Below are positions 6,149 to 33,551 of a stretch of 64,000 nucleotides of DNA, one piece after another. How positions within the stretch are numbered: the stretch's first letter is position 1; each line of letters begins with the position of its first letter. The notes under the pieces were generated by a model, which saw only the letters and a list, made by a program, of their open reading frames with translations, did not search any database and was not told the origin of the DNA. Source of the DNA: Qiania dongpingensis (GTDB taxonomy: Bacteria; Bacillota; Clostridia; Lachnospirales; Lachnospiraceae). The stretch lies in NCBI RefSeq assembly GCF_014337195.1, contig NZ_CP060634.1, forward strand, positions 1,178,001 through 1,242,000, in the 5' to 3' direction. Both the position numbers and the translations under genes were made by a program.

Positions 6149-6158
6149 AGACCCTCCC

Positions 6159-7657: not shown

Positions 7658-7670
7658 AGTAGCTTAATTC

Positions 7671-7699: not shown

Positions 7700-7750
7700 T
7701 ATCCTCATAGAAAATACGTTTTTCATTTTTAGAATTTACAGGAGGACACT

Positions 7751-9608: not shown

Positions 9609-9702
9609 TCATCTCTGAAGGTTAGTCTGCCCGCCTTCCGGCCTTCCCATACCTTCAAAACTGCACATTGTCATCCATCTGTCAAAGCCTTCCTAAACCG
9701 CC

Positions 9703-12592
<2,890 letters not shown>

Positions 12593-12755
12593 TTTCCCTC
12601 ACAGGTAGCGTCCCGTGAGCCTGGCTTAGGTTTTTGCTTTGTTTTGAAATTGAATTGGTTTAAATCATTTCAATTTTTGATGTCTTTTCCAATGTGCAGT
12701 TTTCAAGGTACGGCGTTTCTAAAAGCTCTCTTTTCTGCTTGAAAAAAGGCTTTCC

Positions 12756-12828
12756 TGGAGATGAAGGGATTCGAACCCTTGACCCCCTGCTTGCAAGGCA
12801 GGTGCTCTCCCAACTGAGCTACACCCCC
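12756..12828 (-). tRNA. tRNA-Ala (TGC)
   Basis: Acceptor GGGGGTG pairs with CATCTCC; anticodon loop CTTGCAA. Spacer tRNA of the rRNA operon, between tRNA-Ile and 23S. Confidence 0.95.
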
Positions 12829-12879
12829 ATACGGGCTTCTGGTCATCTCTATCGTTTTTTCTCTTTTGGTCTTTCTTTG

Positions 12880-12958
12880 ATCTTTCCTTGGTTCCTTCTT
12901 GCATGGGCTTAAGCGGGCCTTACCTCCTCAAGCTCATCTTTCCTTGGTCTTTCCTACA

Positions 12959-12972
<14 letters not shown>
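12880..12972 (-). repeat. Partial duplication of the tRNA-Ile 3' end and flank
   Basis: The segment 12936-12972 covers the tRNA-Ile 3' acceptor end (GGGCTTAAGTGG on the plus strand) and its downstream flank. It recurs imperfectly at 12880-12917 (GGGCTTAAGCGG, with the same ATCTTTCCTTGGT flank). The second copy lacks the rest of a cloverleaf, so it is a remnant, not a gene. Confidence 0.6.
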
Positions 12973-13032
<60 letters not shown>

Positions 13033-13040
13033 AAAATTCT

Positions 13041-13153
13041 GGCACCCACCTGCTCTCCCATGCCGTCTCCAGCATAGTACCATCGGCCGTTCAAGTCTTA
13101 ACCTTCGTGTTCGGGATGGGTACGGGTGTTTCCCCTGAACGTATCGGCACCAG
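13041..13153 (-). rRNA. rrf: 5S ribosomal RNA, between 16S and 23S
   Basis: The minus strand begins GGTGCCGATACGTTCAGGGG and contains the canonical CCCATCCCGAACACG loop and a GGTGGGTGCC 3' end pairing with the 5' end. It lies about 180 bases after 16S and directly before tRNA-Ile. No 5S is seen after 23S, so this is the operon's only copy. Confidence 0.93.
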
Positions 13154-13330
13154 AAATTCCGTTATCCAGTTGTAAGTGCACAGGCAGGATGGCCTGACCA
13201 GGAAGCTCGCTTCCTGAGGATGGGCTCCTCACCTGTATACGCGGCTCTGCCGCGAACGAGAGGGCTGCGCCCTCGAGGTGCACTTTCCCCGATAACTCAA
13301 CAGCATATTCCAACTCCCTTACTTCTTCTT

Positions 13331-14870
<1,540 letters not shown>

Positions 14871-15050
14871 CTGATCTCTTGGTCTTAAGATAAGCTCTAG
14901 CTTTTTCTTTATCCCATTTACTTACTTTTAAGGTCGATGCTCTCGCATCGGTTCTCTGAAACTTCTTTTTTAAGAATTTTCAGGGGTTGGAATATACTGT
15001 TCAGTTATCAAGGTTCTCTTGCCGGTTCTCCATTATGATAGAAAACCGAG

Positions 15051-19126: not shown

Positions 19127-19882
19127 CTATAGCACTACTCCGTTTTGTCGCAGGCCTGCCTGCGTGTTTTCACTCACGTCCCGTTCCCTCAAAAACGCCT
19201 CGGCCGCCGCGATGTCCTCCGGAGTCGTCACCTTTATGTTTCGGTAATCTCCTTCCACCAGCTTCGCTCTTTTTCTGAGAAAGATCTCCGCCAGCATGGT
19301 ATCATCCGTCACCGAAATGCGGTAACTGCCCTGTCTGAACCTCCTGTGTGCTTCCAAAATGACCGGATACGAAAATCCCTGGGGCGTATGGATGGTCCAG
19401 AGACTTCCCCGCTCCGGCGTATCCACGGCCATCCCGCTCTCATCTGAAATCTTAATGGTATCCTTCACCGGCATCCCTGTCGTACAGCTGTCATAGGTCA
19501 TCGCTCCGTCCAGGACCCGGGAAATGATCTCCGGCGTCACCATCGGCCTCGCTCCGTCATGAATCAGCACATAACTGCAGTCATCCGCCGCAAGCAGGCC
19601 CGCATAAACGGAATCGTATCGTTCCTGTCCCCCGGAAATGATCTTGGCCACCTTTTGAAATCCATACTTTTCTACAATCTGGCGCTGGCAGTATTCCATA
19701 TCCTGTTCCCCCGCCACCAAGATGATCTCATCCACACAGCTTTCCTCAAAAGCCTTCAGAGAATAATAAAGCACCTCATGCCCTCTGATCCTCAGATATT
19801 GTTTCGGCACATCGGTCCCCATCCGTTTTCCCTGCCCCGCGGCCAGAATAACAGCCGTCACCTTTTCGTATCCCATATCCAT
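19127..19882 (-). CDS. ispD: 2-C-methyl-D-erythritol 4-phosphate cytidylyltransferase
   Basis: Transfers CMP from CTP to methylerythritol phosphate, step three of the MEP isoprenoid pathway. Visible: nucleotide-binding VILAAGQGKRMG with PKQYL, ISGGQERYDSVYAGL, VLIHDGARPMV, PVKDTIK, WTIHTPQGF, VTDDTMLAE and a C-terminal NIKVTTPEDIAAAEAFL. About 251 residues, slightly longer than usual. ATG 19882 or ATG 19876 are both possible; the frame open to 19927 has no ribosome site. The family also contains ribitol-5-phosphate cytidylyltransferases (TarI-like), which I consider less likely but cannot exclude. Confidence 0.82.
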   Translation of the reverse strand: MDMGYEKVTAVILAAGQGKRMGTDVPKQYLRIRGHEVLYYSLKAFEESCVDEIILVAGEQDMEYCQRQIVEKYGFQKVAKIISGGQERYDSVYAGLLAADDCSYVLIHDGARPMVTPEIISRVLDGAMTYDSCTTGMPVKDTIKISDESGMAVDTPERGSLWTIHTPQGFSYPVILEAHRRFRQGSYRISVTDDTMLAEIFLRKRAKLVEGDYRNIKVTTPEDIAAAEAFLRERDVSENTQAGLRQNGVVL

Positions 19883-19978
19883 TGTCCCTTTCGTTTCTCT
19901 CTGGCAGCCGGGCTGCCGATACCGCACACTCCCTGCGGGGTGTTATATATTTCATATCTTCTATCATTTATAAATAGT

Positions 19979-20737
19979 TTATTGTATTTTATACCAAACC
20001 GTACTTTCCTCAGAAATCATACTGTTCAATATTCTTTCTGCATGATCTGCCGCTTTCTGCAGTTCATTCTTACTTTGAAGTGCGACTGCCTTCGGCTCCT
20101 CATACTGATAAAGCTGCGGCCACGTACTGTCCGGCACCAAAACAAGTCCTCCCAACTGTGTCTCATCATATGTTCCGACGATACCCACCACTTGGAAAAG
20201 TTTCCCCTCAATTTCCAAAGCTTCCCCTATGGCTTCTTTTTCATAAAAGAGCTGCATCGCCGCCCTGTCGTTTAAAACGGCCACTCGCTTCTGTTCCAGA
20301 ATATCCTTCTCTGTAATCCCCCGTCCTTTTTCTACCATAAGTCCCGCTGCCGGAAAGAAATCTGTCCCTACCCCAAGAACACTTCCACCCGCCAATCCAT
20401 CCAATCCACGATAAACCGAAATCTCCTCTTTTCTCAAATAAAAGGCCGCCGCTTCCGAAACGTTTTCTTCTTCCTTTATCTCCTTTATCAGGAAATCTGC
20501 CAGAGGCACCAGGGAAGGAACGGCTGCCGCTGAAGAAAAATCACATCGAACCTCTCCTTCCGACAGGGCTATCACTGCGGTCTCTTCCCCAAGGATACTT
20601 TCATTCTGTACCTCTTCGAGTTCCCCGCTTTTGCCCTTATCACTACCTTTTCCGAATTCAAAGGCTATAAAGCAGGACACAGCCAGTACAAATGCGCCGG
20701 CAAAAATTCCGGCAGCAAACTTCGATTTCTTTTTCAC
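19979..20737 (-). CDS. Membrane-anchored MacB periplasmic-core-like protein
   Basis: A 252-residue protein with one N-terminal membrane helix (about residues 6-25) and an extracytoplasmic domain resembling the MacB/FtsX core domain: GVGTDFFPAAGLMVEKGRGI, RVAVLNDRAAMQLF, and IGEALEIEGKLFQVVGIVGTYD. Usually this domain is inserted in an FtsX-type permease; here it stands alone without other helices. I chose the GTG at 20737 because AAAGGAGGAGGCT precedes it. An ATG at 20800 would overlap the upstream gene and add a charged extension. Last gene of the export operon, 19 bases after the second adaptor, so it probably assembles with that ABC transporter. Confidence 0.65.
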   Translation of the reverse strand: MKKKSKFAAGIFAGAFVLAVSCFIAFEFGKGSDKGKSGELEEVQNESILGEETAVIALSEGEVRCDFSSAAAVPSLVPLADFLIKEIKEEENVSEAAAFYLRKEEISVYRGLDGLAGGSVLGVGTDFFPAAGLMVEKGRGITEKDILEQKRVAVLNDRAAMQLFYEKEAIGEALEIEGKLFQVVGIVGTYDETQLGGLVLVPDSTWPQLYQYEEPKAVALQSKNELQKAADHAERILNSMISEESTVWYKIQ

Positions 20738-20756
20738 AGCCTCCTCCTTTTGCCTG

Positions 20757-22565
20757 TTATTCCGCCGATTCTTTCGTTCCAATCTCCATTTCTTCTCCAT
20801 AGACGACTTTGGCTTTTTTCCCTTCTTCTACGCCGTCCGCTTTCGGCTCCGCCAGATAATCGCCCAAAGAGATTCCCGAAAGCACCTCCACATCAGTCCC
20901 CAAAATGCTTCTGCCCGTCTCAACAGATCGTTTCTTTAACCGTCCCTCCTGGTCCATGGCATAGACATAGGACGTCCCATTTTCATAAGCGATCAAACTG
21001 CTGGGCAGGACAATCGCTCCCTCTCCCTTTTCTCCCATGGGAACAAGAGCCTCCGAAAGCTCCTCTGCCTTTACTTTTCCCGTGTTCTCCAGATTAGCCG
21101 TAAATCTATAATAGCTCAAATTGGGATTTCCAACAATAGTTATTTCTTCCTCCGGCTCTTTATCAATGGAAAGAATCTCTGCAGAAACGGAGATTTCTTT
21201 TCCATCGGCAGTAGCTGGCAAGGAGATTTTATCTCCCTCCTTTAGCTTAGCTGCAAGAATCTCATTCAGCTGTCCTTCCAGGTGATATCCAGAATCTTCT
21301 TTTATTATCAGCATGGGCTGCCCATATAAGACGGCCTCTTCAATCCCTAAAACCTCCTGTACCGTACCATCTCCTTTTGCTATCACAGTACATTCTTCAA
21401 TTGTTTCCTTCAGATTTAAGATCTGCTTTTCCTTTTTTCGAATAGCAAGCTCCAGCTTCTCATACTCCATCGAACGTTCTCTCACCATCTGAGCCAGCTC
21501 TTCCTTTGTAAATCCCTGAACCGCACTGTCCAGATTTCCCAGTGCCTCCTCCAGCATTCCCTCATCAAATTCTCCCTCAAAATCCGGTCGGGATTGTTCG
21601 TCCGTTCCTTCAGAACTGCCGGTACTTTCCTCTGCTTTTAAAGAGCTGCTCTCCTCTGTACCTGCGAGGCTGCTTTCATCTTCAGATTCTGTCTCCTTCT
21701 GCACCTGATCTTCATATGCTTTTCCATCAAAATTCCAAATAAAAAGCGGTTCCTTCATCAAGTCTTCCGATTCCATAATATAAAACCGCCCGCATCCTTG
21801 AATACGCATCAGCAAAACAAGGACCTCGGATGATACCTCCCCGCCCTTTTTCAAACAGTAGCAATATGGAGTATCTATTGTCCCATCACCTTGAAAGGGA
21901 ATGCTGTCTTTATCTATCTTATCATATAAGACGGTCCCCTCAGGAAAAAAAGTGTCCGTCGTCTCCCCCCCTTCAGACTCATGATCCCCGGGTTCTGTAC
22001 TGCCCTCAGATTCCGTTTTTCTTTCCTGGTTTATCTGATTCTCCAAGCTTTTTTCTGCTTTTCCAATATACAAAAGCCCTCCGGCCATCGGGGAATGGCC
22101 TTTTTCAGAAGCATAATGGACGTCCCCTTCTCCCCGTCCGAGTCCGTCCGAGACTGGTTTCATCTGCTTAAGCTCCTCAAGATAGCCTCCAAGCTCCTCA
22201 AGATAGAACTTTTCATTTTCCAGAGAAAGTTCTGCTCCCTGAAGCTCTCCCTCCGGAGCAGAGGAGTCATATTTAAAAAGAGGTGTCCCGGCTTCAACTT
22301 CCTGCCCCTTTTCTACATAGATCACCTCTACAGGACGATCACTGTCATAGTAATAAGCAGAGCTGCCGCCTGCCTCTATGGTAACCGGAACAGAGACAGA
22401 TAAGGACCATTCTTTTTTTCGAAGACCCTCCACTGAATATACCGGGACTGCTTCTTCTCCCGTTCCCATGATCCTGCGGATAGACATACCCGTCAAAAGG
22501 CCTGTGGCCATAACGATTATCGCAATAAACGCCAGTAAGACAGCCAGTTTTTGTTTCTTCTCCAT
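20757..22565 (-). CDS. HlyD/YknX-type efflux adaptor with long acidic insert
   Basis: A 602-residue membrane-fusion-type adaptor: N-terminal helix (about 8-28), first half of a lipoyl/barrel-sandwich domain (VEVIYVEKGQEVEAGTPLFKYD), coiled coil, second half (IEECTVIAKGDGTVQEVLG) and a beta-barrel tail. Between them, around residues 185-325, sits an insert with Ser/Glu-rich low-complexity stretches flanking a small folded segment (IDTPYCYCLKKGGEVSSEVL to FIWNFDGKAYED). Adaptors of about 400 residues lack this. ATG 22565 follows GAGGAGGTATAGCAG. It lies 15 bases after the first adaptor gene and presumably links to the same ABC permease on the outer face of the membrane. Confidence 0.8.
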   Translation of the reverse strand: MEKKQKLAVLLAFIAIIVMATGLLTGMSIRRIMGTGEEAVPVYSVEGLRKKEWSLSVSVPVTIEAGGSSAYYYDSDRPVEVIYVEKGQEVEAGTPLFKYDSSAPEGELQGAELSLENEKFYLEELGGYLEELKQMKPVSDGLGRGEGDVHYASEKGHSPMAGGLLYIGKAEKSLENQINQERKTESEGSTEPGDHESEGGETTDTFFPEGTVLYDKIDKDSIPFQGDGTIDTPYCYCLKKGGEVSSEVLVLLMRIQGCGRFYIMESEDLMKEPLFIWNFDGKAYEDQVQKETESEDESSLAGTEESSSLKAEESTGSSEGTDEQSRPDFEGEFDEGMLEEALGNLDSAVQGFTKEELAQMVRERSMEYEKLELAIRKKEKQILNLKETIEECTVIAKGDGTVQEVLGIEEAVLYGQPMLIIKEDSGYHLEGQLNEILAAKLKEGDKISLPATADGKEISVSAEILSIDKEPEEEITIVGNPNLSYYRFTANLENTGKVKAEELSEALVPMGEKGEGAIVLPSSLIAYENGTSYVYAMDQEGRLKKRSVETGRSILGTDVEVLSGISLGDYLAEPKADGVEEGKKAKVVYGEEMEIGTKESAE

Positions 22566-22580
22566 CTGCTATACCTCCTC

Positions 22581-23717
22581 TTACTCTCCAAAGGCCGCCT
22601 TCTGTCCTTCCCTCAAAGAATCCATAGGCCATGCAAGATAATCCGTGTAGGATAATCCCTCTTTTATCTCATAAGCGCTGTGCCTGTCGTTATAAGCTCC
22701 CAAAGTCACTTTCCGCTTTTCCAACTTTCCTTCTTTATCTACGGCCCACACATAGGGTTTTCCCTCTCCGCCTATAATATAGCTCTCTGGCAGAAGGATA
22801 GCTGTTCCTCCGGAGGTCCCCAAGGACTCTCCCGGCTTTATCAGTTCTGCATAGACATGTTGTCCTGGAAAGAATCCTTCCGCATTCTCAATCACCGCAT
22901 GAACGGGATAAGAAGTTTCTTTCATGCCTTCCGCCTTCGCTTCATTTCCTTCCGGCGCACCTGCCTCTATCCTGTTTATCACTCCCTGGCATGATGCCGC
23001 CCCGTCCCGGTCTTCCGCCGCCACTGTCATACCTGTCTGAAAGTCCTTAAGCTCTCCCTCACCGACATAAAACGTCAATTCATAGGCGCCTTCTGATACA
23101 ATGGTCAGACTTCGTTCGTCTGCCCCTATCTCGGTGACAATCCCTGTGCAGGGAGAAACCACCTGGGTCACTTCCAGCTTCGCATCAAGCCTTAAGATTT
23201 CTTTTTCTTTAAGTCCCAGATTGTATCTTGCCTGCTCAATCTGCGTATTCAAGTCTAAAATCTGCAGATCATAGCTTCCTTTCTCTGAATCATGCGCCTG
23301 TTTTCTGTCATTTTGAAGTATCCTTACCTGGCTTTCCAAGCTGTCAATGGTAAGTTCTTCCTGCTCCATATCCAGAACTGCCTGCTCCCTGTCAAGAGCC
23401 AATAAGGAATTATCATAAGACGCAAGAGCTGTCCCCTGCTCAACCTGCGCTCCCGCTTCTACCAGCAGCCCGTTTGATTCCCTGCCCTCGTCCAGATATA
23501 CTTCCACTTTATTCTTCGGTGCTAGGACGCCCAAAAAGCGGCTCCTCGCCGTCATTTCCTCGATATACCCTGTGATGGAAGCCACAGACTGCACCGGCGC
23601 TTCCTGTTTCTTATTCTCCTTCGGTATGGACGGCGTACCCAGATAAATACCAATCCCCGCCGCTCCTAAAAACAAGAGTACGATACCGAATATCACCCAT
23701 TTTTTCTTGTTCTTCAT
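22581..23717 (-). CDS. HlyD/RND-type efflux adaptor subunit
   Basis: A 378-residue adaptor: N-terminal membrane helix (about 7-27), split lipoyl domain (VYLDEGRESNGLLVEAGAQVEQG and VSPCTGIVTEIGADE), an intervening coiled coil (about 105-185), and a C-terminal barrel with ILLPESYIIGGEGKPYVWAVD. It bridges the ABC permease to an external substrate path in Gram-positive exporters such as YknX. Its ATG overlaps the permease stop by four bases (ATGA), so translation is coupled. Two adaptors in one operon is uncommon. Confidence 0.83.
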   Translation of the reverse strand: MKNKKKWVIFGIVLLFLGAAGIGIYLGTPSIPKENKKQEAPVQSVASITGYIEEMTARSRFLGVLAPKNKVEVYLDEGRESNGLLVEAGAQVEQGTALASYDNSLLALDREQAVLDMEQEELTIDSLESQVRILQNDRKQAHDSEKGSYDLQILDLNTQIEQARYNLGLKEKEILRLDAKLEVTQVVSPCTGIVTEIGADERSLTIVSEGAYELTFYVGEGELKDFQTGMTVAAEDRDGAASCQGVINRIEAGAPEGNEAKAEGMKETSYPVHAVIENAEGFFPGQHVYAELIKPGESLGTSGGTAILLPESYIIGGEGKPYVWAVDKEGKLEKRKVTLGAYNDRHSAYEIKEGLSYTDYLAWPMDSLREGQKAAFGE

Positions 23718-26116
23718 ATACCGCCCTCCTCATAGGTCCGAAAATAAAGCCAACACCCTACAGCCAGGGCTACACACCAGTAAACGATCCGCACCGCAGT
23801 CAGCCGGTACATGGAAAATCCAGTCATCATCGGAAGCAGCGAAAAATAAGTTTCTCCTATAATTCCCATCAAATATAAAAATACAGGAAGTTCCAGTACA
23901 AGCATGGCAATCAGAATCGTATGCACCATGTTCCCGCACCGTTTGGATAGCCATAAAATCAGGCCCACAGCTGCCAGCATACCAAGATATCTGGAAATCC
24001 CCACAGCGAGAAGATAAGCCCACAGCGGAATATTAAAAGGTATCTCAGATAAAACATTCAAGCTCTTTAAAGGGGCTGAAAATCCCGCCGTCCCATATTC
24101 TGAAAATACAGACAGGTATCTCGGAAGGTAGGCGATAAGATAAGCGGCCGTTCCATAAATAAAACAAGAAACGTACTTTCTGATACAAACACTTCCGCCG
24201 CCTCTTAAATATGCCTTCTGTAACATCTCCACTTTGGAGCTTTTCTCCACGGAAAAGACTGCCGACAGGCCGAGAATCAGAAAGAAACTAAGTTTTCCGA
24301 CATTCATCACATCTTCTCGCTGTCCACTCCTGTCAAAAAGAGCCTGCCAGCCAGTATCATAGAAAAGCTCCGCATCCCGCCCTGCCCTCTTCTCATTTAA
24401 GACATGCTCATACTGGCTGACCGCCCTATCAAACCCGATCATTCCGCGAGTTACAGCCATATATTTCGTATTGATCTCCTGCCACTCCATATAGGGAAGC
24501 TTCCCCGACGCATATAAATCTGAAGCACTTTTGTTTTCTTTGGCAAGTGTTTCAAACCTGTTATATTCCTCTTGGTACTTAAATGCCGTTTCCTGCAGCG
24601 GAAGCCCTTCTGCCTGATCGATATAATACTGATAAAATTTATCATCCGAATCCGTATATACCTCAAATCCCTTATATGTATTCCACTGTAAAAAGCAAAA
24701 GAGCACCAGCAAAATCCACGCTTTCTCCATAATAAAAATCTTGTAAAACTCTTTTAAGAACAGAGAAATCCTTATATTTCGTTTCTTATTCCTTTTCTTC
24801 CTGATTTTCGCCTGCAAAAAAGATATCATTCTATTTTCGATACCTGAAGATGAACTCTCTGTCAGATAACATTGAATAGAAAATGTACAGGATAGAAAAA
24901 AGGCCAGGATACCCGTTCCGATGCAAACAGGTACCACATTTACCGGCCATCCAAACAGGTTCATATTGAGATAATCTCCGAAAAACCACGGAGCATCTGC
25001 AAGGCAGACAAGATTCAGTATTTTCAGCGGGCTTAGGTAAGAATGGATCCCTATGGTCAAATACAAAAGAAACTCTATGGAAAAGGTAACCCCCATGGCG
25101 AGGCAGGCACTAATCCCATTTTTAAATACCGTGCAGAGACAGAAAATCAATATACTCCACACAAGAGCCGCCGCCGTCTTAGCAGCTAAAAAGCCGGCAA
25201 GATACTGCCCCGCTGTCATCTCGTAGGGAGAAGTCAAAAAGCCTTTTACGCTTTGAATCGGCCGTCCCAGATCTCCCATCCCGAAAACGATATGACTGAT
25301 CAAAAAATCCATACCGTAAAATATAAGAGAGGCCAGTGCAGACAAAATCAAGACCAATAAAAGCTTTGCCGTAATGGTCTCCAAATACCCCTTTTTCATA
25401 GGTCTGATGAGAAGCAATGTTCCTTCTTCTCTCTCGCCGATAAGTATGGAAATCCCCAGTACTGCCAGCAAAAAAAGAAGCAGGATATCTGTCACTTTTG
25501 ATTCTGTGGCCAAGATAATTCCTTCCGAACTCGCGGCCGGAAGCACAGTTCCTTCTAAATGCTCATAAGCCGGCGGCGTTTTCTCAATATTGCGATAGGA
25601 AAACGTCCCCGGATCTCCAAAGAGGGAAGAGGCTGTCATAATTCTGGCTTCTTCCTCTATTCCCTCTAGGTATTCTTCATAATGAGCCACTGCCGAAACC
25701 TGTTCCAATACATCAGAAAGCAAACTTTGTTCATCATAAAAATTCTTTAAGTATAGAAGATAGCTGTCCTCAATATCCAGATCCGGATACTGATTCATGA
25801 CTTCTTTATGTACATTTCGAAAGCTTTGTTTGTCTTCCTCCGTCCAAGCCTCAAAGCCGTCAGCCCACTGTCTCCAGACATCCACAGCTTCCAAAAGTTT
25901 GACTCTTTCTGTTATAGTCTCCTCTGCCTCCAAAGCGGTCATACTGTCAAGGCTCTCATAAACCTTGCTCACATCCGCCTTCAAATAGCCTTGATACCTT
26001 CCCCGGCTCTCTCTGTAGATCATTATTCCATTAAAAAGAAGGAGGAAAAGAAAGAAAAAGGGCACTGCTTTTTTGGAAAATAATTTTTTAAATTCAAAAT
26101 AAAAAAGCCTCGTCAT
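23714..26116 (-). CDS. Large ABC-2-type transporter permease
   Basis: An 800-residue membrane protein built as two similar halves. Each half starts with a helix followed by a long extracytoplasmic coiled region (residues 35-200 and about 465-615), and each ends in a multi-helix bundle (helices about 205-430 and 620-795). The first half contains LIGEREEGTLLLIRPMKKG, the ABC-2 elbow motif. The duplication makes it a pseudo-dimer that would pair with two copies of the ATPase encoded upstream. Such permeases export peptides or confer bacteriocin immunity. ATG 26116 follows AGGAGGAAGGGGG. Confidence 0.8.
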   Translation of the reverse strand: MTRLFYFEFKKLFSKKAVPFFFLFLLLFNGIMIYRESRGRYQGYLKADVSKVYESLDSMTALEAEETITERVKLLEAVDVWRQWADGFEAWTEEDKQSFRNVHKEVMNQYPDLDIEDSYLLYLKNFYDEQSLLSDVLEQVSAVAHYEEYLEGIEEEARIMTASSLFGDPGTFSYRNIEKTPPAYEHLEGTVLPAASSEGIILATESKVTDILLLFLLAVLGISILIGEREEGTLLLIRPMKKGYLETITAKLLLVLILSALASLIFYGMDFLISHIVFGMGDLGRPIQSVKGFLTSPYEMTAGQYLAGFLAAKTAAALVWSILIFCLCTVFKNGISACLAMGVTFSIEFLLYLTIGIHSYLSPLKILNLVCLADAPWFFGDYLNMNLFGWPVNVVPVCIGTGILAFFLSCTFSIQCYLTESSSSGIENRMISFLQAKIRKKRNKKRNIRISLFLKEFYKIFIMEKAWILLVLFCFLQWNTYKGFEVYTDSDDKFYQYYIDQAEGLPLQETAFKYQEEYNRFETLAKENKSASDLYASGKLPYMEWQEINTKYMAVTRGMIGFDRAVSQYEHVLNEKRAGRDAELFYDTGWQALFDRSGQREDVMNVGKLSFFLILGLSAVFSVEKSSKVEMLQKAYLRGGGSVCIRKYVSCFIYGTAAYLIAYLPRYLSVFSEYGTAGFSAPLKSLNVLSEIPFNIPLWAYLLAVGISRYLGMLAAVGLILWLSKRCGNMVHTILIAMLVLELPVFLYLMGIIGETYFSLLPMMTGFSMYRLTAVRIVYWCVALAVGCWLYFRTYEEGGI

Positions 26117-26127
26117 CCCCCTTCCTC

Positions 26128-26997
26128 CTATTCTTTAAAATAGTAAAGATACACATCCTCGAGACCCGGCCTAACAGACATAAAAACATAATCATCCGGC
26201 TCTTTATCCGAAATCACCCGCACGAAAAGAATTTTTCCCTCTCTGGAAATATTTCCAATTAAATAATCCTCTCTTCCAACGACTCTTTCCAGTTGTTCTT
26301 CCGGCACCTGAAGCTCCCAGACATGACCTGAAAGAGAAGCATTAAGCTCCTCTCTTGTGGAATCCGCCAGCATCTCCCCTTCTCTGATGAGGAGTATCCG
26401 GTTTGCCACCGATTCCACATCTGTCACCACATGGGTAGCGATAATGACAATCTTTCCCGCTGAAATTTCCGAAATCAGATTTCTGATAGCGATTCTCTGC
26501 TTCGGATCCAAACCTGCCGTCGGCTCATCCAGAACCAAAATTTTCGGTTCATCTAAAACCGCCTGGGCAATCAAGAGCCTCTGCTTCATACCTCCGGAAA
26601 AAGAGCAGATTTTTTCCTCGGCTACATCGGAAAGTCCCACCTGGGAAAGTACCTTTGGAATCCGCTCCTTCGCCCTGCTCTTTTTCATATCCCGGAGCGC
26701 CGCCACATAAGACAAAAAACCTGTCGCCGAAAAATTGGGATAGAGCGCCTGCTGCTGGGGCATATAACCCAGGATCCCACGAAAATTCCGTCCCAGTTTT
26801 ACGATATCCTCCTCATCGTATAAAATCTGACCGGAAGTCGCCTGCAAGTTCCCTGTCAAAATATTCATAAAGGTACTTTTTCCCGCCCCGTTGGGTCCGA
26901 GAAAACCATATACTCCCTCAGTCAGGGTAATATTCAAGCCTTTAAGTGCCTGCTTCTTTCCATAGGCCTTTGTGAGTCCCTTAATTTCAAGCTTCAT
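26128..26997 (-). CDS. ABC transporter ATP-binding protein
   Basis: A 289-residue ATPase: Walker A GFLGPNGAGKSTFM, Q-loop GYMPQQ, signature CSFSGGMKQRL, Walker B KILVLDEPTAGLD, and switch His in IIATHVV. It has a C-terminal extension of about 75 residues as in drug/bacteriocin-exporter ATPases. It drives the 800-residue permease encoded 11 bases downstream. It begins 93 bases after the lipoprotein gene, where a weak TATAAT (27056-27061, minus strand) could give a secondary promoter. Confidence 0.92.
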   Translation of the reverse strand: MKLEIKGLTKAYGKKQALKGLNITLTEGVYGFLGPNGAGKSTFMNILTGNLQATSGQILYDEEDIVKLGRNFRGILGYMPQQQALYPNFSATGFLSYVAALRDMKKSRAKERIPKVLSQVGLSDVAEEKICSFSGGMKQRLLIAQAVLDEPKILVLDEPTAGLDPKQRIAIRNLISEISAGKIVIIATHVVTDVESVANRILLIREGEMLADSTREELNASLSGHVWELQVPEEQLERVVGREDYLIGNISREGKILFVRVISDKEPDDYVFMSVRPGLEDVYLYYFKE

Positions 26998-27090
26998 ATT
27001 CCTCTTCTTTCTCCTGCCCCGCTGTTCAAAATTCGCTTTTCATATATCTAAGTTCATTATATCAAAAATCACCGTTTATCACATCTATAT

Positions 27091-28212
27091 TTATTCATTT
27101 AAAATTTCCCAATTTCCAGATCCCTGAATGAAATCCTCTGCCTTTATTCGGGCCAGCTCTCCTTTTTTAGAATCTCTTCCAATCAGCTGATCTTCCACCC
27201 TTACATACGGTATGAAGCATTTTGCAGTATCTCCCGTTCTCATAAGCCGGCATGTGCCGTCTTCCATATACTGATACAGTTCAAAGATCTGGCGGGTATA
27301 TCCGTCCTCTGTTACCACTGATTCCTCTCCATAAATCATAAATAATTTAAGCTCCTCGTCCCAAAAAAAATCTGAGGCGATTCCCTTCGTCCAAATATTT
27401 TCCTGATCCCCTGTTTCCAGGTCTGCAATGACAAGTTCATATTTTTCATCTTCCATAGCACTGCATAACAATGTGTCTCCCTGCACAGATCCTGTAACGA
27501 TATTTACATTTCCTAAAGGAGAGGTGATCTCCCTGGTGTCAAGATCCATCTGTCTCAACAAATTCTTCTCTCCATCCCATTCTGTGTAAATCAGTTTGTT
27601 TTTGTATTTTCCAAAAACAGAATACGCTGGACGCATATACTCCTTTTCCTCGCAAAGTACTTCCGCCTCTCCCGTATCAAAATGATAACGATAAATCCCA
27701 CTGGCCGTACCTGTCCATTCGCCCGTTGCATCATCAAAATGATCGTCTTCTGTTTCCAGCACACAAACATCACCATAAAACAGATTCACCGTCCCAATCG
27801 CATAACCATTTCCATGGGAGAACGATCCAATTTTCTTTTCATTGCCGCCGTCTAAATCACAAGAATAGAAAGCTCCCTCGTCTTCATCCGTTTTCATCAC
27901 ATGATAATACCATTTATCTCCCAATTTTCCCATAAAATCAATGTTCTGATAAAGATAAACCGCCATACATTCAGAAGAATCATGTCTGCAATTAGCCTTT
28001 GCGCAGAGTGTCAAATACTCTTTCGTCTCATAATCATAATATTTAATTTTCCCGTTTATATCCGACTTCTTATATAAAATACCTGTTTTCGTAAAGCAGG
28101 AATTCATCCGCCATACAGATTCTTCTGCATTATCTGTTTTTTTCTTCTTTCCACATCCTGCTAAGATCAGAACACTGGCGCTAAAAAATAAAAATATCCG
28201 GAACATTTTCAC
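27091..28212 (-). CDS. Lipoprotein, beta-propeller-like
   Basis: A 373-residue predicted lipoprotein: signal peptide with lipobox LILAGC (Cys at residue 20), then a Cys-containing motif LCAKANCRHDSSEC seen in clostridial surface lipoproteins, and repeated beta-hairpin units (YSCDLDGGNEKKIGSF, YRYHFDTGEAEVLCEE, RQMDLDTREI, VIADLETGDQENIW) typical of a propeller. Function unknown. It follows the solute-binding-like lipoprotein by 16 bases. The start is GTG 28212 or ATG 28206, after GGGAGGGGTGAGGG. It may sense or sequester the secreted protein or its target. Confidence 0.75.
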   Translation of the reverse strand: MKMFRIFLFFSASVLILAGCGKKKKTDNAEESVWRMNSCFTKTGILYKKSDINGKIKYYDYETKEYLTLCAKANCRHDSSECMAVYLYQNIDFMGKLGDKWYYHVMKTDEDEGAFYSCDLDGGNEKKIGSFSHGNGYAIGTVNLFYGDVCVLETEDDHFDDATGEWTGTASGIYRYHFDTGEAEVLCEEKEYMRPAYSVFGKYKNKLIYTEWDGEKNLLRQMDLDTREITSPLGNVNIVTGSVQGDTLLCSAMEDEKYELVIADLETGDQENIWTKGIASDFFWDEELKLFMIYGEESVVTEDGYTRQIFELYQYMEDGTCRLMRTGDTAKCFIPYVRVEDQLIGRDSKKGELARIKAEDFIQGSGNWEILNE

Positions 28213-28228
28213 AAGCCCTCACCCCTCC

Positions 28229-29707
28229 CTAATTTTTCGTATTCAGCTGCTGATTCATGTTATCGACCACCTCCTGTATTCCCATTCTCTCTAACGTTTC
28301 CTCTATTTTTTTTAATTCAGCTTTCCAATCTTCGCTGTTTCCGGAAAACTTCCACATGTAATCATCTTGTATCAACGTATTTACTTCGCTGACCGTCATC
28401 CCAATCTCCGTCATATCAAAGAAAAATCCATTCAGTTCAGATGGATGTATTGTCTCTACCGTATCCCACAATTCTTTATTTATAGATTCCGATTCACCTT
28501 CTCCCGGCGAAGTCAGGAACGGATTCCCAAAAGCAGAACCCGCCAGAGCATCCGAAAAGTCCTTTTCAGAATAGATCAAACTCAAAATATGGATAGCTTC
28601 TTCCTTATTCTTACTTCCTTCCAGTACACAAGCTTTATTCCCTTTACCCGAAAATGACTGGTTAAATTCTGGAAGTTCAACCGCTAGAAGCTGTATACTT
28701 TCGTCCATCTCATACGCGTTTCTGCAATACATTTCCGCACTCTCCGCACTGTACGAATATATACCAGTGACAAAAAATTCTCCTGCTCCCAAGGCTTCCC
28801 AGTAATTGTCATAGCAGATCATACCTTTTTCACCCCATCGGTTTAAAAGTTCCATGTGATCTAAAAACTCCTCATTTTTTAGAATATTTTCCACAACGGG
28901 AGCACCATCTCCCACAGACACAGCAAGCAGCTCGCAAATTGTATTTTCATAAGAGGCGCTTAAAAAATACGGCCACATTGTAGATATTACAAATGCCGGA
29001 TTTTCCTTCTTTATTCCACTGTCTATTACCTTTTCCATAAGATTTTCCATATCGGAAAATGACACCCGTTCTACATCGAGCCCAAATTCCTGCGCATATT
29101 TCTGATTAAACACTGCGTAATACTTAAAATTGGTATATGGCGTTAAAACACCATATATTTCTCCTTCATACCGGAGTGATTTCCATACGACTGCAGGATA
29201 TGCCCTTTGCAGCTCTGTGCCATTTTCTGTCTGATCTGGTTCAATATCCAATGGTTCCAGCATACCCTTTTGCGCCATAATCGCATATACATCATAGCAA
29301 TTCAAAACTCCCGGACATGTAACAATATCATAACCGCCGGTTTGAACCGCATCGATATAGGTCTGTACATAAGCCTCATAGTCCTCCTCAAAAGGAACCT
29401 TAATATCCACAAATTTTATTTTATTTTCTATTCCTTTATTTCGCAGCAGCTCATTCAGACTATCCTCATAAATCTCCAAATCTGTTCCCATATCAAAAAC
29501 TGCCCATGTCAGCGTTCCCGGCTCTATGTCCTGCTCCATATCAAATTTCTCTGAACTCTGTTCTTCTGTCTTACTGTCTTTTTCAAAACTTTCTAAGCTG
29601 CTTGTTTCTAAAGGCAGAGTGTCCTTTTCTTTTGGTTTATCCAATCCGCATCCGCAAATGTTTAATACCGATATTACAAGAACCACTATCCATATATATC
29701 TTTTCAT
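28229..29707 (-). CDS. Extracellular solute-binding-like lipoprotein
   Basis: A 492-residue lipoprotein: signal and lipobox LNICGC (Cys about residue 20), a Ser/Glu-rich linker to about residue 58, then a family-1-type solute-binding fold (GTLTWAVFDMGTDLEIYED, GYDIVTCPGVLNCYDVYAIM, KGMLEPLD, GEIYGVLTPYTNFKYYAVFNQKYAQEF, KEEAIHILSLIYSE). No sugar permease genes are nearby. In this operon it may act as a receptor or immunity factor rather than in import. It is separated from the small secreted protein gene by a hairpin. Confidence 0.72.
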   Translation of the reverse strand: MKRYIWIVVLVISVLNICGCGLDKPKEKDTLPLETSSLESFEKDSKTEEQSSEKFDMEQDIEPGTLTWAVFDMGTDLEIYEDSLNELLRNKGIENKIKFVDIKVPFEEDYEAYVQTYIDAVQTGGYDIVTCPGVLNCYDVYAIMAQKGMLEPLDIEPDQTENGTELQRAYPAVVWKSLRYEGEIYGVLTPYTNFKYYAVFNQKYAQEFGLDVERVSFSDMENLMEKVIDSGIKKENPAFVISTMWPYFLSASYENTICELLAVSVGDGAPVVENILKNEEFLDHMELLNRWGEKGMICYDNYWEALGAGEFFVTGIYSYSAESAEMYCRNAYEMDESIQLLAVELPEFNQSFSGKGNKACVLEGSKNKEEAIHILSLIYSEKDFSDALAGSAFGNPFLTSPGEGESESINKELWDTVETIHPSELNGFFFDMTEIGMTVSEVNTLIQDDYMWKFSGNSEDWKAELKKIEETLERMGIQEVVDNMNQQLNTKN

Positions 29708-29734
29708 ATGCTGCCTCCCAATTATATAGCAAAT

Positions 29735-29762
29735 GGGATAGACTATAAAAATAGTCTATCCC
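29735..29762 (-). terminator. Intercistronic hairpin after the secreted-protein gene
   Basis: GGGATAGACTA and TAGTCTATCCC form a perfect 11-base stem with a short A/T loop, 20 bases after the secreted-protein stop. No full T-run follows on the minus strand. It is better read as a partial terminator or RNA-stabilising element that lowers expression of downstream genes relative to the first. Confidence 0.6.
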
Positions 29763-29782
29763 TTTCATTAGTTCAAATATAT

Positions 29783-30127
29783 TTACGGTAAATTGAAAGA
29801 AACACTACTTTTACTTGCTCCGTGACCACTCTCCGCACCTATTACAGTACCAGATATGCTCCTTGATGTATTAGCATATGATGATCCAGAATTTTCAGCT
29901 TTTGAAGACCAATATGTACCACCGCTGGAAGTATTGTATTTAACCCTGACAGATACATACGCGTTTCCGTTCGTGTTTGTTGTTCCTGCACTTGCATACG
30001 TTGAATAAGTCTTCAGTGTTCCGCTAATCGTACCGCTTGTTTTGTTATAGCTCGCCGCAAAAGATGTAACACTAAATAACATGAGTGTCATTGCTGACAT
30101 TAATAGTATCAAGATTTTTCTTTTCAT
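29783..30127 (-). CDS. Small secreted Ser/Thr/Gly-rich beta protein, unknown family
   Basis: A 114-residue protein: Sec signal peptide (MKRKILILLMSAMTLMLF..., cleavage after about residue 25, SFAA) and a mature part of about 90 residues rich in Ser, Thr, Asn, Gly and Tyr with alternating polar/hydrophobic strands (GNAYVSVRVKYN, RSISGTVIG, SSVSFNLP). It has no cysteine and no double-glycine leader. I do not recognise the family. It resembles Sec-dependent beta-sandwich bacteriocins of the lactococcin 972 kind in size and setting but lacks their Trp/His motifs. First gene behind the repressor-like operator, followed by lipoprotein and ABC genes. The start follows GAAAGGGG. Confidence 0.7.
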   Translation of the reverse strand: MKRKILILLMSAMTLMLFSVTSFAASYNKTSGTISGTLKTYSTYASAGTTNTNGNAYVSVRVKYNTSSGGTYWSSKAENSGSSYANTSRSISGTVIGAESGHGASKSSVSFNLP

Positions 30128-30256
30128 ATCTCAAAACCCCTTTCGTTTTTATTATGAATTTTGGCCAAATTCATTTATATTAAGTGACACTTAATATTTC
30201 TTATTATTTCTCTGTCAAAGCATTTTTTTCTAATTCTAATATATTATATGTAAATT

Positions 30257-30269
30257 ATTTTACTTACTT
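30257..30269 (-). repeat. 13-base element shared with the blaI promoter, copy 1
   Basis: AAGTAAGTAAAAT on the minus strand starts five bases after the -10 of the secreted-protein promoter. The identical 13-mer lies just after the -10 of the blaI promoter (32318-32330). Confidence 0.6.
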
Positions 30270-30274
30270 ATTCT

Positions 30275-30303
30275 AGTATACATGTACACTCATATTTTGT
30301 CAA
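30275..30303 (-). promoter_or_regulatory. Promoter with overlapping BlaI-type operator
   Basis: Minus strand TTGACA (30298-30303), 17-base spacer, TATACT (30275-30280). The dyad AGTGTACATGTATACT (30275-30290) covers the -10 and half the spacer. Its TACA-TGTA core is the BlaI/MecI operator type. It would block RNA polymerase when bound by the BlaI homologue encoded upstream. The rest of 30128-30534 is AT-rich and has no other gene. Confidence 0.7.
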
Positions 30304-30500
30304 TTTATTTTATTAGTATTTATTTTATGATATGTCATTTGATATTACATAAAGTTTTATATAACCAATTATTTTTCAGTGTATTTTATATTTTATTTTC
30401 TACAAAGCCCTTTTGATTTGTAAAATTCTTTTTTTGTAAAAATAGTTTAAGCTTCTTGCACATTCATATACACCATATTCAAAGGACTTTCTCAAAATAT

Positions 30501-30526
30501 AAAAAGGGCGCCGTCCCGACGCCCTT
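30501..30526 (-). terminator. Terminator of the blaI-blaR1 unit
   Basis: On the minus strand AAGGGCG, loop, CGCCC followed by TTTTT, starting nine bases after the blaR1 stop. It separates the regulator unit from the secreted-protein operon. Confidence 0.85.
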
Positions 30527-30534
30527 ACCAATCC

Positions 30535-31902
30535 CTATCTTACAACAAACAATCCAACTGTAATATCTTTACCGGCAAGATTTTCTACATACACGCGATG
30601 GTAGCCGTTTTGGTTCACAGTGAATGTGTGAGAATACGCTCCCGTTCCGGATACGCCTCTCCAATATCCATTGGGCTGACTCAAACCGACTCCAACCTTG
30701 GCATTTGCCGGGTCCGGTGATACTGTTACAACTACCTTACTTCCATTGGAAGCGTAGAACTGCCCTGTCAGCTGGGATTTTCCGGCAGGTATATCCCATG
30801 TATAACTGTTATTCGCTCTCGTCAAAAGATCATCCGGCATTTCTATTATACTTTTGCTTTCATCAGGGAGCCATTCCACCTCTTCCAGACCTGTTAACTG
30901 CGGCTGCAAATCTTCTTCAATGATCACCTTAGTAGCTTCATATGCTGTATCATATAATGCCGCTATTCCCTGCCCCGCTGCCAGAGAGGTAACCGCTGAG
31001 GCCATAGCAAAGCCCGCCACCAACAGCAATATCCCTGCTTTTTTCAACTCTTTTTTTGGATTATACTTCATCATCCTGTTCACCCTCCCTTTCAATGATT
31101 CTAACGTTTTCTGCAAGCTCATACCAGACAGTAATTCCAATTCCATTTTACCGGAATTACGAGCTACAATATCAAAATACTGTTTAATATCCCATCCGCC
31201 GCTCCCTTCAAAACATACATATTTATCACAGCATATATCGCCCCATTTATCGACCTCCTTTTGAAGATACCGTGTGAGCGGGTTAAACCACTGAATCCTG
31301 ACTATCCAGCTGCACGCCTTTTTTAACAGTAAATCTCCTTGCCTGTAATGCCAAAGCTCATGCTCCAGGATTGCATGCAGCTCATCGTCATCATATTGTT
31401 TTTGGGGCAATAAGATTTTCTTATGCCAAAAACCAACGATCAGCGGTGTTTTCTGGCTCACCGTCATATATACAGGAACTTTTCTTGATAACCTCATATC
31501 ACTGCACACAGCGTCCGCAGCATCCTGTATTTTCTTTTCTGCCCGCATGCTGTGCCGGATAATACCTCTGACTGCGGATTCACACTGTACATATTTTATA
31601 ACTTTCCAAACAGCGCCCAATAACCAGATAACAGCCATAACTCTGAATGCAGTTCTCAAAAACGGAGTCTGCTGTGAAAACGGCGTATTCATAGACCCAT
31701 AAAACAGATTGGTCCGGAACGCCATATAAAAAAACGCTACCGGAACAACATAAAAAACAATCACAGCCAGCAGACAGGCCCTAATTCCCCTAAATTGTTC
31801 TCTCCTGTCCAATCTGCTGCTGAGAATCTTCCATCCGCCAAATACAATCGTACCAGTCAATGTAGTCATGAATATCATCAGAAATACACTAATCAAATTC
31901 AT
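30535..31902 (-). CDS. BlaR1/MecR1-type M56 sensor metalloprotease with novel extracellular domain
   Basis: A 455-residue protein: four membrane helices (about 3-22, 38-58, 88-106 and 285-305) around an M56 zinc protease domain with ILEHELWHYRQGD (HExxH) near residue 180. BlaR1 proteins sense an external ligand and then inactivate the BlaI repressor. Here the extracellular C-terminus is not a penicillin-binding domain. Instead, about 90 residues after an acidic linker (YTWDIPAGKSQLTGQFY, KVVVTVSPDPANAKVGVGL, GTGAYSHTFTVNQNGYHRVY) look like a beta-sandwich. It overlaps the blaI gene by 14 bases. The ligand is unknown, so beta-lactam sensing should not be assumed. Confidence 0.82.
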   Translation of the reverse strand: MNLISVFLMIFMTTLTGTIVFGGWKILSSRLDRREQFRGIRACLLAVIVFYVVPVAFFYMAFRTNLFYGSMNTPFSQQTPFLRTAFRVMAVIWLLGAVWKVIKYVQCESAVRGIIRHSMRAEKKIQDAADAVCSDMRLSRKVPVYMTVSQKTPLIVGFWHKKILLPQKQYDDDELHAILEHELWHYRQGDLLLKKACSWIVRIQWFNPLTRYLQKEVDKWGDICCDKYVCFEGSGGWDIKQYFDIVARNSGKMELELLSGMSLQKTLESLKGRVNRMMKYNPKKELKKAGILLLVAGFAMASAVTSLAAGQGIAALYDTAYEATKVIIEEDLQPQLTGLEEVEWLPDESKSIIEMPDDLLTRANNSYTWDIPAGKSQLTGQFYASNGSKVVVTVSPDPANAKVGVGLSQPNGYWRGVSGTGAYSHTFTVNQNGYHRVYVENLAGKDITVGLFVVR

Positions 31903-32284
31903 CCAAAAATCTCCTGAATTCCGCTAAATCTTCTTTAGAAAGACCCTCTTCGTCACCTTTTAATGCCATCATCGCATATGCAGCACTGCTTTGATTCCAG
32001 AACTTCCTCCAGTATCTCGTCTGTTCTTCCATGTAATCTTTTTTGCTTACAAGAGGAATGTGAGTCCGGCGTCCGTTCTCCGACTTTAAGATCTGAATAT
32101 AACCTTTCTTTTCTAAATGTCCCGCATATGTATTTACAGTCTGCGGCAGTACCTGCTCGTTTAGATATTCCTGATATTTTTTTCGGATATTGGAAGTACT
32201 CGTTTCCTGTCCGTCTTCCTCCACCTCCCAGATCATTCTCATCAGATCCAGTTCAGTCGCTGTCAATCTTGCTTTTGCCAACAC
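31889..32284 (-). CDS. BlaI/MecI-family transcriptional repressor
   Basis: A 131-residue winged-helix repressor: LTATELDLMRMIWEVEEDG, a recognition region LPQTVNTYAGHLEKKGYIQ, the basic wing KSENGRRTHIPLVSKKDY where family members are cleaved, and a C-terminal dimerisation helix pair. The start is GTG 32284 with AAGGAG six bases upstream. It is translated with the overlapping protease-sensor gene. It presumably binds the dyad at 30275-30290, and autoregulation is suggested by the 13-base element shared by both promoters. Confidence 0.87.
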   Translation of the reverse strand: MLAKARLTATELDLMRMIWEVEEDGQETSTSNIRKKYQEYLNEQVLPQTVNTYAGHLEKKGYIQILKSENGRRTHIPLVSKKDYMEEQTRYWRKFWNQSSAAYAMMALKGDEEGLSKEDLAEFRRFLDEFD

Positions 32285-32317
32285 CTTTTTCTCCTTATAA
32301 TTTCAATTTATTACTTC

Positions 32318-32330
32318 ATTTTACTTACTT
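32318..32330 (-). repeat. 13-base element shared with the secreted-protein promoter, copy 2
   Basis: AAGTAAGTAAAAT on the minus strand, two bases after the -10 of the blaI promoter. Identical to 30257-30269, and likely part of a common control site. Confidence 0.6.
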
Positions 32331-32332
32331 GC

Positions 32333-32361
32333 ATTTTATCACTTTTTTATATTATAATCAA
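32333..32361 (-). promoter_or_regulatory. Promoter of the blaI-blaR1 unit
   Basis: Minus strand TTGATT, 17-base spacer, TAAAAT, about 50 bases before the GTG start. Confidence 0.5.
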
Positions 32362-32411
32362 GTTTTTCAACTGAATTTTCCAAAAGATCAATTTATACAA
32401 AGTAATAGAAT

Positions 32412-32438
32412 AAGCTCTTACCATTTTGGCAAGAGCTT
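32412..32438. terminator. Terminator downstream of tsaD
   Basis: AAGCTCTT and AAGAGCTT form an 8-base stem between tsaD and the blaI promoter, with T-rich flanks on the plus strand and a weaker one on the minus strand. Confidence 0.55.
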
Positions 32439-32492
32439 TTCATTAAATCAAATATTTTATTAATAATTAGCAGATTAAACTGCAAAAGCCTT

Positions 32493-33551
32493 TTATCGCT
32501 CTCCCAGCTTCAGATTGGGGACCGCGTTCAGATCCCATCCGCTTCTCGTCCCTTTTTGATACTCATAGTAAGCCGCTGCGCCGATCATCGCCGCATTGTC
32601 GGTGCAAAGGGCGGGTGACGGGTGATAGAAACGAAATCCTTCCTTCTCACAGGCCTCTTTCATAGCTGCCCGGAGAGCCGAATTCGAGGCTACGCCGCCG
32701 GCAATGACCACATCCCGAATCCCAAACTCTCTGGCCGCCAGGACTGTGCGGCTAACCAAAGATTCCACCACCGCATTCTGAAAGGAAGCGGCCAAGTCGC
32801 TTTGGCTGACCTTTTCTCCCCGCATCTTTTCGTGGTTCAGGTAATTGAGCACCGCCGACTTCAAACCGCTGAAGCTGAAATCATAAGGCGCTCCCTCTAT
32901 TTTCGCCCGCGGAAACTCCATCGCGTGGGGATTTCCCTCCTTTGCGGCCTTGTCTATCTTCGGTCCTCCCGGATACCCGAGCCCGATTGCCCGCGCCACC
33001 TTGTCAAAGGCTTCTCCCGCGGCATCGTCCCTGGTCCTTCCGATGATCTCAAATTCTCCGTAGTCCTTCATCTTCACCAGATGCGTATGGCCGCCGGAGA
33101 CGATCAGGCACAAAAAAGGCGGCTTCAGGTCTTTGTTCTCAATAAAGTTGGCGCTGACATGGCCCTCTATATGATGTACGCCGATAAGCGGCAGCTTCTT
33201 CGCATACGCGATTGCTTTTGCCGCGGATACGCCCACCAGCAGAGCGCCCACCAGGCCGGGGCCATAGGTGACTCCCACAGCGGTCATTTCATCCAGAGTC
33301 ATACCCGCTTCATCCAAGGCTTCCTGGATCACCTGATTGATCTTTTCAATATGCTTCCTGGAAGCGATCTCCGGCACTACGCCCCCGAACAGCGTATGGA
33401 GTGCGATCTGTGACGATATCACATTGGACAAAACCTCCCTACCGTTCTTGACCACCGCCGCCGCTGTTTCGTCGCATGAGCTCTCGATGGCTAAAATATA
33501 TACATCCTGTTCCTTTTTTTCTGCTGCCATTTTATCATCCATCCCTATCAT
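32493..33551 (-). CDS. tsaD: tRNA N6-threonylcarbamoyladenosine transferase TsaD
   Basis: Transfers the threonylcarbamoyl group from TC-AMP to A37 of ANN-decoding tRNAs, as a complex with TsaB and TsaE. About 352 residues. Visible ASKHA fold motifs: [16 protein letters not shown], metal-binding [10 protein letters not shown] (HxxxH), [21 protein letters not shown], and [11 protein letters not shown]. It follows RNase Z by 24 bases, while tsaB and tsaE are a few kb upstream on the same strand. Start 33551 or 33542. Confidence 0.95.

Follow-up and report, generated by a model that had tools for sequence, protein, structure and literature searches.

A putative modular system of a small secreted protein, lipoproteins and an ABC transporter behind a BlaI/BlaR1-like switch in Qiania dongpingensis

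The gene cluster between tsaD and ispD

The analysed stretch of the Qiania dongpingensis genome (contig NZ_CP060634.1, positions 1,178,001 to 1,242,000; hereafter the 64-kb window) contains a cluster of ten genes, all on the minus strand (19979-32284 of the window), which we describe here as a putative modular system built around a small secreted protein, referred to as SEC. In gene order, the cluster encodes a BlaI-type repressor, an M56 sensor-protease resembling BlaR1, SEC, two lipoproteins (LP1 and LP2), the ATPase and the permease of an ATP-binding cassette (ABC) transporter, two HlyD-like proteins and a free MacB domain (Table 1). The initial annotation had claimed ten same-strand genes of these families, among them a 114-residue secreted beta-rich protein placed behind a sensor-protease pair and accompanied by lipoproteins and a complex ABC machine; all ten genes are present and the description is supported.

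The cluster lies between tsaD and ispD, the reading frames of which overlap or are at most 30 bp apart in all 8 of 8 related genomes. Given this direct adjacency in the relatives and the low guanine-plus-cytosine content of the ten genes (0.39-0.49 versus 0.54-0.55 for the flanking tsaD and ispD), the intervening stretch reads as an inserted island. A Pfam scan found no match to integrase or transposase domains among the island genes. The island reads as an assembly of exchangeable modules, namely the switch pair, the SEC/LP1/LP2/ABC genes and the HlyD/HlyD/MacB set. Domain calls rest on Pfam and NCBIfam models and their cut-offs.

The repressor is a member of the BlaI family (Penicillinase_R: 38.8 bits, cut-off 22.6). 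In the sensor-protease, residues H181, E182, H185 and D226 are invariant across 21 aligned sequences (alignment A4), and the C-terminus is modelled as a 128-residue beta-sandwich in the place where BlaR1 has its penicillin-binding domain (predicted local distance difference test, pLDDT: 89). The model of this sensor domain has fold matches of the PliG/GOLD/PPC kind, without a match to the Pfam PPC family; no penicillin-binding or transpeptidase-like Pfam domain was found in the sensor-protease at E-values up to 1, and with the NCBIfam BlaR1 model it scores only 55 bits, the cut-off being 400. By analogy, the C-terminal sensor domain would be extracytoplasmic, and the protein families involved make it plausible that the cleavage of BlaI is triggered by an external ligand.

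SEC was modelled by AlphaFold as a confident beta-sandwich (pLDDT: 88.5), with generic structural neighbours only. A search of 5.8 billion proteins returned only two other clusters at E-values up to 1. The SEC profile (A3) gave 9 strong matches (E <1e-18) and some weaker ones in the genomes of eight relatives. SEC sequences vary widely, their mature parts being 17-60% identical to each other. Among 299 genomes of the family it gave two strong matches, both already known, so the SEC branch looks rare; weaker matches in 26 further genomes (E up to 0.001) cover mostly the signal-peptide part and are longer in L122, L123 and L125 (the loci compared are numbered with the prefix L). A derivation of SEC from the sensor domain was considered and rejected (hhalign: 0.2%).

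Sequence profiles assign LP1 to the solute-binding-protein fold (5suo, 5swa and 5mlt in the PDB, E ~3e-24); the lipoboxes of LP1 and LP2 were recognised by eye. In L102, two single open frames (5265-7757 and 10375-12897) fuse LP1-like with LP2-like lipoproteins, pointing to a probable joint action of the two. The permease, which shares 87% identity with a Lacrimispora sp. NSJ-141 permease, is truly duplicated, as had been proposed: its N-terminal and C-terminal halves align with each other (hhalign: 98.5%, E 2.6e-15). Neither HlyD-like protein reaches the TIGR01730 cut-off for the RND/HlyD adaptors, and both show weaker homology only.

Table 1. Genes and other features of the inserted stretch (window coordinates)
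Feature	Position	Strand	Evidence or remark
Inserted stretch (12.6 kb)	19928..32492		between tsaD (32493-33551) and ispD (19127-19927)
BlaI-type winged-helix repressor, 131 aa, GTG start	31889..32284	-	Penicillinase_R E 1.4e-9
BlaR1-like sensor-protease, 455 aa	30535..31902	-	Peptidase_M56 E 2e-20, HELWH
Terminator-like hairpin after the switch pair	30504..30526	-	hairpin scan
Promoter-like site TTGACA-17-TATACT before SEC	30275..30303	-	11/12 consensus matches
21-bp perfect palindrome ATATTAAGTG-T-CACTTAATAT	30177..30197		proposed operator or leader hairpin
Second dyad around GGCC (ATGAATTTGGCCAAAATTCAT)	30154..30174		same place in other loci
SEC, 114-aa secreted beta-sandwich protein	29783..30127	-	signal peptide to ~residue 25 (by eye)
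12-pair hairpin between SEC and LP1	29735..29762	-	-19.4 kcal/mol, z -5.2
LP1, 492-aa lipoprotein, solute-binding-protein-like (DUF3502)	28229..29707	-	PF12010 E 1.5e-6
LP2, 373-aa lipoprotein, no Pfam family	27091..28212	-	C70, C75, H77, C82, C150 invariant in 12 aligned sequences
ABC ATPase, 289 aa	26128..26997	-	ABC_tran E 1.9e-31
ABC-2-like permease, 800 aa, internally duplicated	23714..26116	-	ABC2 matches below cut-off
HlyD/RND_mfp-like protein 1, 378 aa	22581..23717	-	TIGR01730 63 bits (cut-off 94.9)
HlyD/RND_mfp-like protein 2, 602 aa	20757..22565	-	TIGR01730 56 bits (cut-off 94.9); HlyD_3 E 2.9e-4, just below cut-off
MacB_PCD domain without FtsX membrane part, 273 aa	19979..20800	-	PF12704 E 7.7e-16

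Close relatives and the region upstream of SEC

Operons of the BlaI-BlaR-SEC-LP type were found in the genomes of six relatives (L010, L102, L104, L105, L106 and L112); with the window, the same order is kept in 7 loci of 7 genomes, and in every one of them LP1 or LP2 comes after SEC. L271 contains the end of a protease gene, an operator-like site, two tandem SEC-like genes, of which only the first passes the SEC profile (E 1.3e-7), and then LP1. Across the loci there are lipoproteins in tandem, a single tandem pair of SEC genes and fusions of LP1 with LP2. Two strong SEC matches lie elsewhere: L248 has SEC-LP1-LP2 without adjoining BlaI/BlaR, and L247 has no recognised partner within the fetched piece. 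The neighbourhood table behind these counts was made with a simple open reading frame (ORF) and hydrophobicity rule that mislabels some genes, and leaves out L110 and L111 (short M56 frames). Behind the open BlaI-BlaR-SEC-LP1-LP2 series of L105, the frames of the ATPase and the permease are broken (6529-8444).

Pairs of BlaI and BlaR like that of the window can also be solitary or be followed by different cargo. Pairs with no obvious cargo beside them (L113-L117; 39-42% identity) are among the closest relatives of the window protease. In L096, L097, L098, L180, L182, L185 and L189, BlaI/BlaR precedes a second type of cargo: an ATPase with two small ABC permeases, in most cases joined by a lipoprotein and in some by a small secreted protein that has no name. 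Free-standing copies of the sensor domain with a signal-peptide-like start occur as well, in L189 (5420-5980), L192 (3018-3509), L202 (6432-6842), L198 (in the gene after the protease), L207 (4182-4589) and L208 (5936-6361). Such a copy, possibly a decoy or co-receptor, stands directly behind the receptor gene in four loci (L189, L192, L198 and L202).

The SEC gene begins 407 bp beyond the end of the switch pair, and from the sequence the two look like separate transcription units. The promoter-like site before SEC is weak evidence, because the scan total for such sites is barely above that in shuffled sequences (27 vs 24.7); for terminator-like sites the totals are 23 vs 9.0. Between the promoter-like site and SEC lies the palindrome, the sole one in the window with arms of at least 9 bp and a 1-nt centre; it is followed by TATAA and then by the second dyad, which in other loci is GGCC- or GGCT-centred (GGCT in L102) and sometimes imperfect.

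A dyad with one central base precedes SEC in 7 of the 7 BlaI/BlaR-SEC loci, with both halves changing together and its centre 60-88 bp upstream of the SEC start codon (142 bp in L102). Nine of nine inner pairs are formed in the window, L010, L102 and L112, and 8/9 in L104, L105 and L106. The arm lengths in the window, L010, L102, L106 and L112 are unexpected when compared with shuffled upstream DNA (P <=0.004 each), while the unbroken arm in L104 and L105 is only 4. An exact search for the palindrome pattern in 8 genomes reported 6 sites, all located before SEC and just downstream of a BlaR-type gene, one of them lying at the edge of a contig, where SEC survives only in broken form. Palindrome distances correlate with those of BlaI (r 0.49, exact P 0.006) and BlaR (r 0.45, P 0.012), as against r -0.02 for SEC. 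The conserved dyad, its placement before SEC only and its co-variation with BlaI make it likely, at the level of sequence, that the palindrome is a BlaI operator. BlaI proteins of Clostridium thermocellum bind inverted repeats with different half-sites, also before their own operons (PMC8457756).

A 13-base word found in both promoters of the window, that of blaI and that of SEC (P ~0.03), was dropped as a candidate site, as no such pair was found in the 10 other loci compared. The hairpin between SEC and LP1 could possibly be an attenuator that lowers the expression of the lipoprotein and ABC genes below that of SEC.

The divergence of SEC follows that of LP2 (r 0.74-0.76, exact P ~0.003, 7 loci; r 0.50, P 0.009 over 8 loci and r 0.74, P 0.0125 without L102, which has several LP2 genes, the first being entered). 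BlaI follows BlaR with r 0.97, and SEC gives r -0.29 with BlaI and r -0.19 (P 0.80) with the sensor domain. The samples are small, and the P values of the eight comparisons in the main SEC set are uncorrected. To judge from these distances, BlaI and BlaR form one heritable cassette and SEC and LP2 another, the two being mutually uncoupled. This bears on a signalling loop, in which SEC would be the ligand of the BlaR sensor, serving as a protein autoinducer or in surface communication, with the solute-binding LP1 as co-receptor. The SEC gene does adjoin the receptor gene in 7 loci, and a secreted sensor-domain copy directly follows the receptor in the four loci listed above; the uncorrelated distances of SEC and sensor domain, together with the SEC-LP module of L248 that has no adjoining BlaR, nonetheless make such a loop improbable.

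Comparable modules in distant Bacillota

Relatives of the permease were found in 145 loci, of which 80 were fetched, 10 of them close (56-65% identity) and 70 distant. With the window proteins as queries, the HlyD-HlyD-MacB set was detected in 9 of the 10 close and in 0 of the 70 distant loci, some of the latter being cut by contig ends. A signal-peptide protein of 111-177 aa lies before or among lipoprotein/ABC genes in 19 or more of the distant loci, which come from Paenibacillus, Fontibacillus, Ruminiclostridium, Anaerobacterium, Herbinix, Ruminococcus and others. These distant module proteins were chosen by eye (position, signal peptide) from 22 of the 70 loci, and a simple rule was applied to all 70. 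Ten of them were compared with Pfam and NCBIfam, and none received a name over the cut-off.

A profile built from the 9 close SECs placed 5 of 18 distant module proteins, all named before the ranking, in the top 30 of 3824 ORFs, compared with 0 for the reversed profile and 0-2 for 60 column shuffles. An earlier list of 21 proteins (7 in the top 30; reversed profile 1; 30 shuffles 0-2) included additions from L027 and L021 made after the ranking and was not used. In profile-profile comparisons, SEC matches the Paenibacillus/clostridial group with 32-45% probability (E 2e-4 to 5e-4), the Ruminococcus group with only 2%, and the controls (lactococcin 972 and the sensor) with 0.05-0.25%. On the strength of these scores, the Paenibacillus/clostridial module proteins are likely homologs of SEC. 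One near-C-terminal His is invariant in a 23-row alignment of SEC with some of the distant module proteins.

The regulators beside the distant modules differ: BlaI with M56 (L075), AgrB with a GHKL kinase (L024 and L033), LytTR (L011) and an OmpR-type regulator (L071). Control of the agr type is familiar from bacteriocins, and the modules in L024 and L033 may, by analogy, be counted for a bacteriocin-like role of SEC.

The initial annotation had taken the ten genes for one fixed system and had set independent variation in a neighbourhood survey as the finding that would speak against it. The survey went both ways: the order BlaI-BlaR-SEC-LP is kept in 7 loci, and the modules do vary, with BlaI/BlaR pairs alone or before other cargo, SEC-LP1-LP2 without the switch in L248, comparable distant modules beside agr-type genes and the HlyD/HlyD/MacB set restricted as described, so that a single fixed system is not supported. 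Variation of this sort could also be taken for a chance neighbourhood, a general ABC exporter operon that happens to lie beside a small surface protein and a regulator unrelated to it, since the switch pair is often alone or with other genes and the HlyD/MacB part was seen in the close group only. We regard this as very improbable in view of the order kept in 7 loci of 7 genomes, the SEC-specific palindrome and the presence, at the corresponding position in distant Bacillota, of small secreted proteins, some of which resemble SEC.

Possible function and comparison with known systems

We favour, tentatively and with slightly more doubt than conviction, a modular system that combines a Sec-secreted, bacteriocin-like SEC with lipoprotein/ABC protection and a non-beta-lactam BlaR switch; the toxicity, the ligand and the immunity we infer. 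An extracellular cue (an antimicrobial of a competitor, a host factor or envelope damage) would bind the sensor domain, and M56 protease activity would lead to the loss of BlaI from the palindrome, whereupon SEC would be made in bulk and exported via Sec, to target other bacteria in the manner of a bacteriocin. LP1 and LP2 would capture SEC on the outside of the producing cell, and the ABC transporter, extended by the two HlyD-like proteins and the MacB domain, would keep it off the membrane; the receptor would decide when SEC is made. A polymorphic SEC tied to a lipoprotein and a dedicated pump, with tandem copies and fusions, is the sequence pattern that would be expected of a toxin with its protection. 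A role in toxin/immunity or envelope defence had already been suggested by the initial annotation and still appears the most sensible reading.

Several points weigh against a bacteriocin-like SEC under such control. SEC belongs to no Pfam or NCBIfam family over the cut-off, its toxic or binding activity is putative, and the single matches of its profile to distant proteins all have E >0.1. The solute-binding fold of LP1 would fit uptake or sensing as well, and SEC does not co-vary with LP1 (r 0.25, P 0.21, 5 loci), while its correlation with LP2 may reflect joint inheritance of neighbouring genes only. L003 and L004 keep the switch, LP1 and ABC genes and have no SEC; the remaining genes are therefore useful without it. 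As to the operator, no similar palindrome was seen before blaI, and the palindrome and the second dyad could possibly form tandem leader-RNA hairpins.

The main rival is envelope defence: the switch would sense an antimicrobial from outside (host lysozyme-like or a competitor's peptide), SEC would be a shield or decoy, LP1 and LP2 would bind the drug and ABC/HlyD/MacB would remove it, no weapon being involved. We consider this unlikely, as SEC is polymorphic and co-varies with LP2 instead of the sensor, and the comparable modules beside agr genes do not have the appearance of drug-induced ones. Returning to the bacteriocin-like system, a bolder version, possible though on balance doubtful, is that SEC represents the first recognised branch of polymorphic Sec-secreted antagonism proteins across Bacillota, with cognate lipoprotein immunity and a duplicated ABC pump, brought in one Lachnospiraceae group under BlaR-type receptors with a PliG/PPC-like ectodomain swapped in, so that the attack would be switched on by an extracellular competitor or host factor via BlaI proteolysis.

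The BlaI/BlaR switch is best known from beta-lactam resistance. The window pair resembles BlaI/BlaR1 (MecI/MecR1) in its repressor family, the M56 protease with HExxH, the adjoining genes and the position of the C-terminal domain after the last hydrophobic segment; it differs in the PliG/GOLD/PPC-like beta-sandwich that replaces the penicillin-binding domain and in the neighbouring cargo, which is neither a beta-lactamase nor a penicillin-binding protein.

SEC resembles the lactococcin 972 family as a small signal-peptide beta-sheet protein near membrane/ABC genes and a regulator, from which the window differs by its lipoproteins and BlaI/BlaR. The nearest characterised analogue is mediterrocin, a member of that family from the same bacterial family, which, like SEC, has 114 aa, with a 25-aa signal peptide (PMC12345188). 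By sequence, SEC is not a lactococcin 972, as had been claimed from the start: PF09683 gives no match at E-values up to 1, and membership was rejected with a profile of 18 family members (hhalign: ~0.1%), taken from 26 PF09683 loci after the removal of 2 with in-frame stops, 3 without an ORF call and 3 near-duplicates. A C-terminal likeness seen by eye was dropped, as it has no profile similarity. The list of structural matches to the SEC model does not include lactococcin 972, which is uninformative either way, and none of the ten proteins matches DUF1430, the seven-helix lactococcin 972 neighbour, at E-values up to 1.

With LanI and LanFEG the cluster shares one or more lipoproteins, an ABC ATPase and an ABC-2-type permease beside a secreted product; unlike them it has a single duplicated 800-aa permease and an LP1 of solute-binding fold, its ATPase scores 165 bits with the lantibiotic-protection model TIGR03740 (cut-off 309.75), and the Pfam scan found no lantibiotic modification gene among the ten. 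The HlyD/RND_mfp-like proteins and the MacB periplasmic core domain recall exporters of the MacAB/YknWXYZ type, from which the window differs in a MacB domain without the FtsX part and in a permease that is ABC-2-like, not MacB-like. Literature searches found nothing joining BlaI, M56, ABC transporter and Lachnospiraceae, or BlaR1, M56, sensor domain and bacteriocin, and the available part of PMC13289728 contains nothing on the window's system.

If the reading is true, secreted proteins with lipoproteins and pumps to match would form a family not described before among the means of competition of gut and soil Bacillota, and BlaI/BlaR would be a general switch module that, with a different ectodomain, stands before varied surface and ABC cargo. 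Both points lend themselves to direct tests: the secreted protein has 90 residues, the site is a defined stretch of 21 bp and the receptor would work in one step.

Elsewhere in the window, the ribosomal RNA operon at 9702-14871 has an unusual order, with 5S placed between 16S and the Ile/Ala transfer RNAs, before 23S, and a purine riboswitch lies on the minus strand at 53456-53552.

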